From Flavimarina sp. Hel_I_48 (GTDB lineage Bacteria; Bacteroidota; Bacteroidia; Flavobacteriales; Flavobacteriaceae), in NCBI RefSeq assembly GCF_000733945.1, contig NZ_JPOL01000001.1:29917-93916 (forward strand): a stretch of DNA of 64,000 nucleotides. The letters are read 5' to 3'. Both the position numbers and the translations under genes were made by a program. This document shows positions 15,872 to 19,389 of the stretch, in pieces. Every line of letters begins with the position of its first letter. The stretch's first letter is position 1. The notes beneath the pieces are model-generated. The model was given only the letters and a program-made list of their open reading frames with translations, was not told the origin of the DNA and ran no database searches.

Positions 15872-17113
15872 ATGCTTTCACTATTTAGGGAAAATATCCG
15901 TATTGCCTTTGATTCTATCAGGGGAAACCTGCTGCGCACCATACTTACCATCGTAATTATTGCCATAGGGATCACGGCGCTGGTCGCTATACTAAGTCTG
16001 GTAGGCGCGCTGGAAAACACGATAAGCAGCGATTTTTCTTCCATGGGATCCAATACGTTTAGCCTTGATCGCTATGAGCGCACCACACAGCGCCGCGGCA
16101 GTGGAGAAAGGGAAAAAACAAATCCGGTAATAGGATATCGCCAGGTCAGACAATTTGAAGAAAATTACGACTATCCCTTTACGCATGTCTCCACCTCCTT
16201 TACCGGTACCAGCACGGCCGAAGTACGCTACGATACCAAAAAAACAGACCCCGAGGTTACCGTACTGGGGGTAAACGAAAATTTTATTCAAAATGCCGGG
16301 CTCGCATTGCAGCTGGGAAGGGATTTTAACGTTTTTGATATTTCAAACAACAGCCATGTTTGCGTTCTGGGAAGTGATTTTGCAAAAGGGCTTTTTGAAA
16401 ATATTGATCCCATTGATAAAACCATAAGTGTAAGGGGCACCAAGTTTAAGATTTTGGGTGTTCTGGAAGAAAAAGGGAGCACCTTTGGAAATAATCAGGA
16501 TTTGCGCGTGCTTATTCCCATACAGACGGCGCGTTCTATGTTTACCCAGCCGAACATTAATTACGCGGTAAGCATCAAAGTTGATGACAAGGAAATGATG
16601 GAAGGCGCGCAGGACGACGCCATTCTTACCTTTAGAAATATCCGTGGGCTCTCACCTGTAGAAGAAAATAATTTTGGCATGCAGCGCAGCGACGATCTGC
16701 TCAATCAAATTTCCAGCATATCAGGATATCTTTCCATGGCGGCATGGATCATTAGCCTGATCACTGTACTGGGCTCTTCCATAGCGCTGATGAATATCAT
16801 GTTGGTTTCGGTCACCGAACGTACGCGGGAAATTGGCGTTCGAAAGGCACTTGGCGCAAAAAAATCTACCATTGCCGGTCAGTTTCTAATGGAAACTATT
16901 ATGGTGGGCCAGTTGGGCGGAATACTCGGTATTATACTGGGCATAGGCATAGGTATGGCGATCTCTGCAGTGGCCAATTTCAATTTTACCACACCCTGGG
17001 GCGCTATGATCGCGGCAACTGCGGTAACACTTTTTGTTGCTATAATTAGTGGTTCGTTCCCAGCCGTAAAAGCCGCACGCCTGGATCCTATTGAATCGTT
17101 ACGGTATGAGTAA
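15872..17113 (+). CDS. ABC transporter permease, MacB/FtsX type
   Basis: 413 residues from ATG 15872. An N-terminal membrane helix (about 22-50) is followed by a periplasmic core domain (about 50-285) and a C-terminal FtsX bundle of three helices with the signature TERTREIGVRKALGAKKSTI. Such permeases work as dimers with a MacB/LolD-like ATPase in macrolide export, lipoprotein release or mechanotransmission. No ATPase gene is adjacent, so its partner must be elsewhere. The palindromic repeat array begins four bases after its stop codon. Confidence 0.9.
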   Translation: MLSLFRENIRIAFDSIRGNLLRTILTIVIIAIGITALVAILSLVGALENTISSDFSSMGSNTFSLDRYERTTQRRGSGEREKTNPVIGYRQVRQFEENYDYPFTHVSTSFTGTSTAEVRYDTKKTDPEVTVLGVNENFIQNAGLALQLGRDFNVFDISNNSHVCVLGSDFAKGLFENIDPIDKTISVRGTKFKILGVLEEKGSTFGNNQDLRVLIPIQTARSMFTQPNINYAVSIKVDDKEMMEGAQDDAILTFRNIRGLSPVEENNFGMQRSDDLLNQISSISGYLSMAAWIISLITVLGSSIALMNIMLVSVTERTREIGVRKALGAKKSTIAGQFLMETIMVGQLGGILGIILGIGIGMAISAVANFNFTTPWGAMIAATAVTLFVAIISGSFPAVKAARLDPIESLRYE

Positions 17114-17117
17114 CACC

Positions 17118-17257
17118 GGCGGTTTCGGGACACTGTGCTTAGGGCGCAGCACTCAACCGACTATAGCTCTTACATTGAATGAAAATTTGAAGATGTTCTG
17201 CTGAAACAAAAAAGTAGGCGGCTGAGTGATCGGCAAAGCCGAGCGTACCGAAGCCCC
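17118..17257. repeat. Palindromic unit 1 (R1-linker-L1)
   Basis: R arm 17118-17161, linker, L arm 17217-17257. R1 is slightly diverged: GGGACACTGTGC in place of GGTACACTGCGC. The L arm carries an inner TCGGC-AAA-GCCGA hairpin. The GIY-YIG stop codon lies 19 nt beyond L1. Confidence 0.88.
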
Positions 17258-17276
17258 AGTTTATGTTCTATACATA

Positions 17277-17570
17277 TTATTCTTTCCTGAATATCTTTTT
17301 TGCAAGTTCTGGAAGGAGATCATAATCCCCATTTATAAGTGCTTCCTTCTTCTTCCTACTCCAACCTTGTATTTGCTTTTCCCTATAAAATGCGTGATCG
17401 ATACGGTCGTATTCTTCGTAATACAACAGTTGAACCGGCAGATGTTTTGCGGTGTGCCTAGCCCCCTCTCCATCTTGGTGTTGCTTGACCCTGAGGGATA
17501 AATATTTAGTACTACCTGTATAATAACTGCCGTCTGAGCACAATAGAATATAGGTGTAACCTTTTGCCAT
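17277..17570 (-). CDS. GIY-YIG nuclease domain protein (URI/UPF0213 type)
   Basis: 97-residue single-domain GIY-YIG protein. The two strand motifs read YTY (5-7) and YTG (17-19). The catalytic Arg27 is in LSLRVKQH with His31 following. The metal-binding Glu64 is in FYREKQIQGWSRKKKEALI, so the active site looks complete. The conserved GEGARHTAKHLP segment is typical of the small UPF0213 group, which is abundant in Bacteroidota. Their function is unproven: repair, DNA mobility and host defence have all been suggested for the superfamily. The gene is bounded by repeat arm L1 19 nt after its stop, and by a degenerate R arm (17596-17638) about 25 nt before its start. Confidence 0.92.
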   Translation of the reverse strand: MAKGYTYILLCSDGSYYTGSTKYLSLRVKQHQDGEGARHTAKHLPVQLLYYEEYDRIDHAFYREKQIQGWSRKKKEALINGDYDLLPELAKKIFRKE

Positions 17571-17595
17571 TTTAAAATTTTATGTTTTGGATTCA

Positions 17596-17638
17596 GGGCT
17601 TCGGTAAGCCACGCCTAAGACACGGCACTTAATTGCCT
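17596..17638. repeat. Degenerate R arm upstream of the GIY-YIG gene
   Basis: GGGCTTCGGTAAGCC...GGCACTTAATTGCCT aligns along its length with the intact R arms (GCGGTTTCGGTACAC...GCAGCACTCAACCGCC) but with many substitutions. With L1 it brackets the nuclease gene as an imperfect inverted pair. The 80 nt after it (17639-17718) are AT-rich and unlike the standard linker. Confidence 0.7.
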
Positions 17639-17718
17639 GATTTCATCACTTCAAAACAATACTCAAAATAGAAAGATATAAAATAAAAGTATTATTTGAT
17701 ATACCTAATCCAAAAGCA

Positions 17719-17775
17719 GGCGGCTGAGTGCTCGGCATGAAAAATTCGAAGATGTTCTTCTAAAAAACAAAAGTA
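17719..17775. repeat. Truncated L arm fused to a linker remnant
   Basis: Starts as a normal L arm (GGCGGCTGAGTGCTCGGC) but at 17737 jumps straight into the linker sequence (ATGAAAAATTCGAAGATG), losing the second half of L, the spacer and the whole R arm. It looks like a deletion between neighbouring units. Confidence 0.8.
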
Positions 17776-17833: not shown

Positions 17834-17973
17834 GGCGGTTTCGGTACACTGCGCTTAGGGCGCAGCACTCAACCGCCTAGAGCTCTTACTTTAAATGAAA
17901 AATTGAAGATGTTCTGCTAAAACACAAAAGCAGGCGGCTGAGTGATCGGCAAGGCCGAGCGTACCGAAGCCCC
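17834..17973. repeat. Palindromic unit 2 (R3-linker-L4)
   Basis: R arm 17834-17877 with inner CTGCGC...GCGCAG hairpin, linker with GAAGATGTTCTGCT, L arm 17933-17973 with TCGGC-AAG-GCCGA hairpin. Confidence 0.88.
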
Positions 17974-17990
17974 GGATTACAGACCACACC

Positions 17991-18128
17991 GGCGGTTTCG
18001 GTACACTGCGCTAAAGCGCAGCACTCAACCACCTCAGCTCTTACTTCGAATGAAAATTTGAAGGTGTTCTGCTGAAACAAAAAAGCGGGCGGCTGAGTGA
18101 TCGGCAAGGCCGAGCGTACCGAAGCCCC
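17991..18128. repeat. Palindromic unit 3 (R4-linker-L5)
   Basis: R arm 17991-18033, with CTGCGCTAAAGCGCAG as its inner hairpin, and L arm 18088-18128. It is separated from unit 2 and unit 4 by the same 17-nt spacer. Confidence 0.88.
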
Positions 18129-18145
18129 GGATTACAGACCACACC

Positions 18146-18284
18146 GGCGGTTTCGGTACACCACGCTAAAGCGCAGCACTCAACCGCCTATAGCTCTTAC
18201 CTCAAATGAAAATTTGAGCATGCACTGCTGAAACACAAATGTAGGCGGCTGAGTGATCGGCAGAGCCGAGCGTACCGAAGCCCC
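18146..18284. repeat. Palindromic unit 4 (R5-linker-L6)
   Basis: R arm 18146-18188, whose inner hairpin is partly spoiled (CCACGC against GCGCAG). L arm 18244-18284. The spacer to the next unit differs: GGGTTTCCTGCGACGCC. Confidence 0.88.
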
Positions 18285-18301: not shown

Positions 18302-18439
18302 GGCGGTTTCGGTACACTGCGCTAAAGCACCGCACTCAACCGCCTCAGCTCTTACTTCGAATGAAAATTTGAAGGTGTTCTGCTGAAACAAAAAAGTAGG
18401 CGGCTGAGTGCTCGGCAGAGCCGAGCGTACCGAATCCCC
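18302..18439. repeat. Palindromic unit 5 (R6-linker-L7)
   Basis: R arm 18302-18344 and L arm 18399-18439. It ends 14 nt before the UDP-xylose synthase stop codon. L7 has GAATCCCC where other copies have GAAGCCCC. Confidence 0.88.
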
Positions 18440-18453
18440 GGCCTCTGCAACTC

Positions 18454-19389
18454 CTAAATCACTTCCTTAAAATAAGCTATGGTTTTTATCAGTCCGGCGT
18501 CTAACTGGGTATTGGGTTCCCAGCCGTTAAGTTTTTCTTTGGCAAGGCTAATATCCGGTTGACGTTGTTTAGGATCATCCTGTGGCAGGGGCATGTGCCT
18601 GATCTCTGATGATGAACCGGTCAATGCAATAATTTTAGATGCAAGTTCAAGCATTGTAAATTCATTGGGGTTACCCAGATTTACAGGGCCCAAAAAGCCA
18701 TCTTCACTGTTCATCATGCGTACCATTCCTTCTACCAGATCATCTACGTACTGAAAGGAACGCGTTTGATTACCATCGCCGTAAATAGTAATATCTTCCC
18801 CGCGAAGGGCCTGAACAATAAAATTGGAAACCACCCTCCCATCAGCGGGATTCATATTTGGCCCGTAGGTATTAAATATTCGTATGATCTTTATGGCGAC
18901 ATCGTTCTGGTTGTGGTAATCCATAAACAGTGTCTCCGCGCAGCGTTTTCCCTCATCGTAGCACGAACGCAAGCCTATAGGATTTACATGCCCCCAGTAG
19001 CTTTCTGGCTGCGGGTGCACCTGGGGATCACCGTAAACCTCACTGGTGCTTGCCTGCAAAATTTTGGCTTTTACCCTTTTTGCCAATCCAAGCATATTGA
19101 TCGCACCCATAACGGAGGTTTTGATCGTTTTAATCGCATTGTATTGGTAATGAATGGGACTTGCGGGACACGCCAGATTGTATATTTCATCTACCTCGGC
19201 ATAATAGGGATGGGTTACATCGTGACGCACCAATTCAAAATAAGGGTTGTCGAGCAAATGAACCACGTTCTGTTTTGCTCCTGTAAAATAATTATCAAGG
19301 CAGAGTATATGATTGCCTTCCTTTAATAATCGCTCGCTAAGATGCGAACCTATAAAACCGGCACCTCCGGTGATGAGAATTTTTTTCAT
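18454..19389 (-). CDS. uxs: UDP-glucuronate decarboxylase (UDP-xylose synthase)
   Basis: Extended short-chain dehydrogenase of 311 residues converting UDP-GlcA to UDP-xylose with internal NAD recycling. Seen: the NAD motif GGAGFIGSH at the N-terminus, the [10 protein letters not shown] strand, the catalytic tyrosine-lysine in [10 protein letters not shown], the [10 protein letters not shown] segment and NDGR-like [15 protein letters not shown]. The sequence follows the UXS pattern shared with animal and plant enzymes. Its substrate could come from ugd (45548-46945). It faces the legionaminate block divergently across a 477-nt gap. Confidence 0.92.

Follow-up and report, generated by a model that had tools for sequence, protein, structure and literature searches.

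Hairpin arms around a small GIY-YIG nuclease gene in Flavimarina: a probable cognate pair of enzyme and repeat

Palindromic repeats and the enzymes ascribed to them

The Ssn proteins are single-domain GIY-YIG enzymes encoded near their repeat, which is present in many genomic copies, and they cleave single-stranded DNA site-specifically. Ssn of Neisseria meningitidis reportedly cuts a palindromic repeat, NTS, and its homologues are said to have cognate sequences of their own, both attributed to Chenal et al. (Nat Commun 2025). An initial annotation of the locus described here stated that no GIY-YIG counterpart of an enzyme gene set between hairpin arms was known. That statement was incomplete, for the Ssn family appears to be one. 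Among the literature matches listed, no paper linked GIY-YIG nucleases to REP-like repeats, subscription papers and preprints lying outside the scope of the search.

The CGTC-tagged REPs were defined by Di Nocera et al. in 2013 as tagged palindromes, mainly in inverted dimers; they occur in five phyla, Bacteroidetes being among the hosts and G. forsetii named, and are apparently without a dedicated transposase (PMC3733652). The same paper gives the Neisseria CGTC-1 elements as the dRS3 repeats (PMC3733652), so the Ssn and CGTC-REP lines probably meet in Neisseria. It is likely that the CGTC-tagged REPs are the repeat class of the Ssn family.

The nuclease gene and its array of arms

The window, the whole stretch of 64,000 nucleotides from Flavimarina sp. 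Hel_I_48 that was analysed, contains a 1.3-kb gap between a permease gene (stop at 17113), which we take from its sequence to be MacB-like, and a convergent epimerase-like gene on the minus strand (18454-19389), the right border. A UPF0213-like GIY-YIG nuclease gene (17277..17570, minus strand), read directly from the sequence as 97 aa plus stop, shares this gap with an array of arms having a period of about 155 nt. The 97-residue protein matched PF01541 (E 3.2e-16, 59.8 bits against a cut-off of 22.6) and belongs by sequence to the same small single-domain family as the solved structures 1zg2 and 1ywl (E 5e-12 and 6e-10). Arg27 and Glu64, noted earlier as intact, were both found on direct reading of the translation and are presumably the catalytic positions. 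Searches with PADLOC and NCBIfam gave no match to the nuclease protein, and an Rfam search of the whole window gave none.

The gap holds six full L arms (plus strand), four full R arms (minus strand), an arm R0, a truncated L and a decayed R1. R0 (17117..17164, minus), slightly degenerate, lies directly 3' of the permease stop codon. L1 (17217..17258, plus) keeps the intact scaffold GGCGGCT-GAGTG-hairpin-GTACCGA-AGCC (DNA fold z -1.7), and R1 (about 17594..17638, minus) lies next to the nuclease start. The truncated L copy (about 17716..17737, plus) was recognised by repeat-family comparison (family D4). L2 (17776..17817, plus; DNA fold z -1.9) is followed after 16 nt by R2 (17834..17877, minus), which has an outer stem and an inner hairpin (DNA fold z -4.1); folded jointly, L2 and R2 form one branched structure (z -8.3). 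The remaining arms are L3 (17933..17974), R3 (17991..18033), L4 (18088..18129), R4 (18146..18188), L5 (18244..18285), R5 (18302..18344) and L6 (18399..18440), with L arms on the plus and R arms on the minus strand, L6 being the final arm ahead of the epimerase-like gene. Inverted head-to-head dimers predominate, and the short L-to-R spacer reported for the units other than that of the nuclease was recovered as 16 nt in all four full pairs.

R1 is strongly decayed and without the scaffold fold (z -1.1), and from its sequence alone its identity as an R arm is a weak claim. The stretch 17594-17638 is read as an R arm because an intact R arm occupies the same place at the orthologous locus of G309, a sister species of the same genus, in which the permease is 90% and the nuclease 80% identical and the array is present. 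In G309 an intact L arm and an intact R arm flank the nuclease. This bears out two claims of the initial annotation, namely that the window nuclease lies between inverted arms (L1 intact, R1 decayed) and that arm, nuclease and arm make up a real unit. The spacer-only L-R pairs may, as also proposed there, be internally deleted derivatives, or the change may have run the other way. GGTGG is the usual form in the G309 arms at the place of the GGCGG found in most window arms (R3 is an exception); the arms of a locus therefore appear to undergo concerted evolution. Synonymous sites are saturated between the two nucleases. In the 11 other congeners with the permease the downstream sequence differs. 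The 655-1500 nt read there contain no long-form arm, GIY-YIG matches were absent up to 1.5 kb from the permease, and none of these genomes offers a cleanly empty counterpart of the window array site. A small GIY-YIG gene was seen about 14-17 kb from the permease in G301:C3, G144:C8 and G308:C1.

L and the reverse complement of R follow one scaffold, consisting of an outer stem, GAGTG, a variable inner hairpin, GTAYCGA (GTACCGA in the window arms) and the outer stem again. Long-form units were collected from 39 family locus records, giving 143 distinct ones (identical units being counted once). In these, the four outer pairs adjoining the loop are formed in 90, 94, 94 and 90%, against 49, 63, 36 and 42% with shuffled partners, and each outer-stem position uses more than one pair type. 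The inner insert measures 12 to 39 nt, with a mean stem of 7.4 against 4.0 when shuffled. Tag and closing pair are linked in 180 units: GTCA occurs with C-G in 84 and T-A without GTCA in 58, while C-G without GTCA is found in 20, GTCA with T-A in 2, and the remainder are other. The window arms use the T-A dialect, and TAGGC, CAGGC and similar letters stand in them in place of a CGTC, TGTC or CCTC tag. The strict long-form pattern finds the scaffold in 5 of 30 loci; it captures a dialect, not the class, because among 20 loci read by eye many others carry other palindromes.

A search of the whole genome found the window's arm family at one locus only. Recent spread within this genome is therefore not in evidence, which counts against the reading of nuclease and arms as a cognate pair. 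Shorter shared arm pieces occur at two other loci, each with its own array. Arrays of the GGCT-GAGT...GTACCGA-AGCC type were seen at C2:688 kb (L283) and C2:2360 kb (L016) of the window's genome (G000), with no GIY-YIG match nearby; it is possible that these are orphan followers of the window nuclease. Two more small GIY-YIG copies are present in the genome, an intact one at C2:425 kb and a broken one at C2:725 kb. Both lie inside arrays of related arms with a different sequence, typically TGTCA-(outer stem)-GAGTG-hairpin-GTATCGA, and TGTCA is found in many units of the sister arrays at C2:425 kb. The broken copy (L003 1380-1640) lies between C-G dialect arms as a decayed unit. The strict scaffold pattern has 57 matches in the genome, against 4 for a reversed control. 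Its 300-nt neighbourhoods form 20 clusters covering 0.42% of the genome. They contain every one of the three small GIY-YIG copies found, the two intact ones and the broken one alike, with a probability of about 8e-8 under random placement.

Repeats and small GIY-YIG genes across genomes

A close relative of the window nuclease was found in 28 of the 299 genomes searched, the window's own included. Inspection of orthologue flanks, proposed in the initial annotation, was carried out at 27 of 29 loci, L270 and L279 being left out as cut by contig ends; the set contains the same-genome neighbours L254/L281 and L255/L282, whose flanks overlap or are non-independent. Scaffold arms lie within 350 nt at 18 of the 27 loci, on both sides at 16, with 62 sites in 18.9 kb near the gene against 1 in 24.3 kb far from it (2 and 1 for the reversed pattern). 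The other nine are without the scaffold by the pattern used, and several of them show a compact form by eye (e.g. L256, L266, L267). Tandem or near-tandem nuclease genes with arms were seen at L088, at L255 and L282, and at L330 and L341; the spacings are 1036 nt between identical proteins (G013), 512 nt (G108) and about 1.9 kb (two copies, G304), which suggests amplification of the whole unit.

Seven window-like nucleases (L260, L268, L269, L271, L275, L276, L278) lie inside long open frames of 417-904 aa, which may be fusions or read-in. By eye, the L256 nuclease sits between two genes resembling hsdM and hsdS; the nuclease may often lie in or beside restriction-modification genes.

For a wider comparison, 85 small GIY-YIG loci among the matches listed were fetched from 60 family genomes, with tandem copies merged. 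The set includes L049 of the window's genome and excludes the window's own locus, two loci close to the end of a contig (G012:C10, G018:C4:171) and rows interrupted by internal stops; 35 uvrC loci of UvrC length, part of those listed, served as control. The 16 tRNA-adjacent loci were set apart before the main counts. Of the 69 non-tRNA loci among the matches listed, 48 have a repeat within 300 nt, compared with 3 of the 35 uvrC loci, and 38 have repeats on both sides, compared with none of the 35 (Fisher about 1e-9 for each); 21 of the 69 are without a 15-mer repeat within 300 nt. Within the same listed matches, 15-mer repeats make up 27% of the nearest 50 nt at the 69 nuclease loci and 1.3% at 3-5 kb, and 0.4% of the nearest 50 nt at uvrC.

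Among the matches listed, TGTC (13) and CGTC (8) lead the 4-mers directly 5' of perfect-stem hairpins near GIY-YIG genes, the next reaching 5; the count was made without a preset tag, though GTCA had already been noticed by eye. Perfect-stem hairpins alone, a weaker test, occur at these listed loci in 45 of 137 near flanks, the uvrC figure being 7 of 70. YGTC hairpins with imperfect stems number 22 in 53.6 kb near the listed genes, 3 in 101.8 kb and 5 in 149 kb far from them, and 0 in 28 kb beside the listed uvrC loci. In the imperfect-hairpin test AAAA (22), CACT (14) and TTTT (14) were at least as common near the gene as TGTC (13).

The tRNA-adjacent loci, 16 of the 85 among the matches listed, form an observation apart. 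In nine of them (L048, L068, L087, L098, L099, L117, L126, L129, L130) part of the tRNA gene is repeated around the nuclease genes, either beyond or between nuclease copies, and L129 contains three 304-nt units, each made of the 5' part of a tRNA-Pro gene and a nuclease gene. These loci look like elements of about 300 nt that insert into tRNA genes.

Tagged hairpins were also found in other phyla. With the L060 protein as query, the best 80 of 236 loci were kept, named loci from many phyla; a CGTC- or TGTC-tagged hairpin lies within about 300 nt at 56 of these best 80 of 236, on both sides at 36, and 24 of the named loci have none. In these best 80 of 236, tagged hairpins have a density of 3.32 per kb near the gene against 0.35 far from it, some of the 163 sites being nested; with five permuted tags the density near the same genes is between 0.14 and 0.45 per kb. 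Bradyrhizobium units have an outer stem and an exchangeable inner hairpin, like the window arms.

Arms and nuclease were found to co-vary. Between different genomes, word sharing in 350-nt flanks rises from 0.010 for nucleases below 35% identity to 0.043 for those above 65%, compared with 0.011 to 0.014 for flanks at 2 kb. The correlation of flank with nuclease similarity is 0.348 near and 0.055 far, the near value being reached in 0 of 2000 permutations, with 38 syntenic pairs excluded from the test. The closing pair, T-A versus C-G, tends to go with the nuclease clade: 13 to 2 for window-like nucleases and 3 to 12 for L049-like ones (Fisher 7e-4, uncorrected for phylogeny), with 7 C-G and 2 T-A among other nucleases that have a dialect. 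By the pattern used, neither dialect was assigned to 113 of 152 distinct nucleases (13 of 28 window-like, 1 of 16 L049-like, 99 of 108 others).

Presence and absence of the two together was observed at one site. Of 13 genomes in the genus, 11 carry a neighbour gene, which was not found in G000 and G309; arms and nuclease both follow it in G300, G304 and G307, and neither is found there in the other 8. Taken with the co-variation and the arms at most orthologous loci, this speaks for the association that the initial annotation would have called accidental had arms and nuclease varied independently. The neighbour protein is 95% identical between G300 and G301/G144. The extra DNA of G300 begins with TGTCACTTCGA, two bases past the stop codon, and has TTCAAGTGACA at its end. 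After TTCAAGTGACA, 9 letters match the empty relatives just past the stop codon, followed by a mismatch and a resumed match; it is on these 9 nt that the right border depends, and TGTCA tags appear to bound the block. The G307 block starts with TGTCACTTCGA and ends with TCGAAGTGACA, and the right end of the G304 block is worn. The three sequences at the block borders thus put its ends at outward-facing tags or close to them. Beyond the neighbour gene, opposite the block site, a small GIY-YIG gene was seen in G302 and G303 (about 2.3 kb away), as was the second G304 copy. Gain of the block in G300 is the simpler reading. The pattern can also be explained by repeated loss in several lineages, because dS between G304 and G307 is similar for nuclease and neighbour gene (0.79 vs 0.66), though it is lower for the nuclease between G300 and G304 (0.55 vs 0.96).

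Mechanism, rival readings and comparison with known systems

We consider it probable that nuclease and hairpin arms form a cognate pair working like RAYT and REP, in which recognition, cleavage and mobility are inferred, while the association, the covarying structure, the cognate co-variation and the joint presence or absence at one site are observed. In the proposed mechanism the arms would act as REP-like single-strand hairpins, with a short outer stem, an internal loop of GAGTG and GTAYCGA and a variable inner hairpin, often in inverted pairs. The small GIY-YIG enzyme would recognise the folded single-stranded arm and, judging from its family and from the reported action of Ssn, cut it at the conserved loop or the outer tag, or close by. 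Such cuts may seed copying or moving of arm pairs by host repair and replication, and occasionally the whole arm-nuclease-arm unit might be copied or moved. Solo arm pairs would then be non-autonomous followers and L-nuclease-R the enzyme-bearing form. The comparison with other bacteria suggests that the GIY-YIG enzyme and its repeats form one minimal selfish element.

The rival that survives best holds that the enzyme is no mover and that arm cutting, as in Ssn-like control of incoming or exposed single-stranded DNA, shapes recombination during natural transformation or repair, the arms being kept or spread for that reason. We consider this less likely, although some points agree with it: Neisseria Ssn and its NTS repeat are reportedly of this kind, the related nucleases of G300, G304 and G307 are under strong purifying selection (dN/dS 0.04-0.06), and the window arms have not spread over the genome. 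By itself it leaves unexplained the joint block of nuclease and arms at one site, as well as the largely private repeat set of each nuclease, for different nucleases in one genome share flank words at a mean of 0.012 (77 pairs), about the cross-genome background.

It is improbable that a free-standing homing-type nuclease landed in pre-existing neutral arrays, the repeats being terminators or old REPs unrelated to the enzyme. REPs are known as landing sites of insertion sequences (PMC1525189), and the window array does lie between convergent genes. Against such a safe harbour, nuclease and flanking repeats co-vary between non-syntenic loci, and tagged hairpins are enriched at the GIY-YIG gene, not at uvrC. 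The G300 site is without nuclease and long-form arms alike in 8 of 11 congeners, and there is therefore no sign of repeats standing first.

Very improbable is the proposal that the arms are ordinary REPs moved by a RAYT transposase (HUH, Y1 family), with the nuclease as passenger. Bacteroidetes RAYTs of subclass 2.6 are flanked by atypical structures (PMC6006769), which would suit it. Yet the genome has no Y1_Tnp match over the Pfam cut-off, the one match of 60 residues (21.4 bits) lying away from the scaffold clusters listed, and a RAYT was rejected as the mover. The GTAG tag is likewise inconsistent, preceding the stem in four of six L arms (L1, L2, L5, L6) and absent from L3, L4 and the four full R arms. 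A shared tendency of small non-essential genes and palindromes to gather in long intergenic gaps, where both are indeed found, is hardly credible in view of the fall of repeat cover from 27% to 1.3% and the lead of TGTC and CGTC before perfect-stem hairpins (both for loci among the matches listed), the 0.14-0.45 per kb of permuted tags against 3.32 near the gene (best 80 of 236 loci), and the nuclease/flank co-variation.

The cognate-pair reading can be widened, tentatively and as a real though minority possibility, to the proposal that units of hairpin arms and a GIY-YIG gene are phylum-spanning autonomous mobile elements that cut folded single-stranded arms and use no transposase or recombinase of a known class. 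They would then supply the enzyme described as missing from CGTC-type REPs, with the tRNA-inserting GIY-YIG mini-elements as a sister branch. The lead of CGTC and TGTC near GIY-YIG genes of one family, together with the tagged hairpins at 56 of the best 80 of 236 relatives, gives a concrete, testable enzyme. Such an enzyme is now proposed for a common class of bacterial repeats that was said in 2013 apparently to lack a dedicated transposase (PMC3733652). The flavobacterial arms, moreover, resemble a readable code, with a conserved loop, an exchangeable stem and hairpin and two dialects tending to follow the nuclease clade; such a code could yield the rules by which single-strand-cutting enzymes recognise their targets. 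What seem to be new are the arm-bounded block, the scaffold with an exchangeable hairpin in two dialects, and the link, spanning phyla, between enzyme and CGTC class. Part of the link, the scaffold or the block may already be contained in what Chenal et al. are said to have reported in 2025.

Compared with the RAYT/REP system (REPtron) and REPINs (PMC3116915, PMC2817692, PMC3733652), the locus is alike in its hairpin-flanked enzyme gene, its inverted pairs, its solo pairs elsewhere and the co-variation of enzyme and repeat. It differs in having a GIY-YIG enzyme in place of an HUH/Y1 transposase and no consistent GTAG tag. The window L-R pairs resemble REPINs as two inverted hairpins with a short spacer, of which L2 and R2 fold together. 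CGTC-tagged REPs are approached in the lead of the CGTC/TGTC tag beside GIY-YIG genes and in the predominance of inverted dimers among the window arms, whereas window-type arms have AGGC/AGGT-like letters at the tag place and mostly a T-A closing pair. The UPF0213 structures 1zg2 and 1ywl, of the same small single-domain family as the window nuclease, are listed as hypothetical proteins. Like Ssn, the window enzyme is a single-domain GIY-YIG protein of about 100 aa near a palindromic repeat. Unlike the Ssn repeat, the window arms are without a CGTC tag, have an inserted variable inner hairpin and a conserved internal loop, and form a local array beside the gene. As to copy number, the window arm sequence is found at one locus and the wider scaffold at 57 strict matches. 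In conclusion, the window element of nuclease and repeats is probably related to the recently described single-strand-cutting Ssn family.
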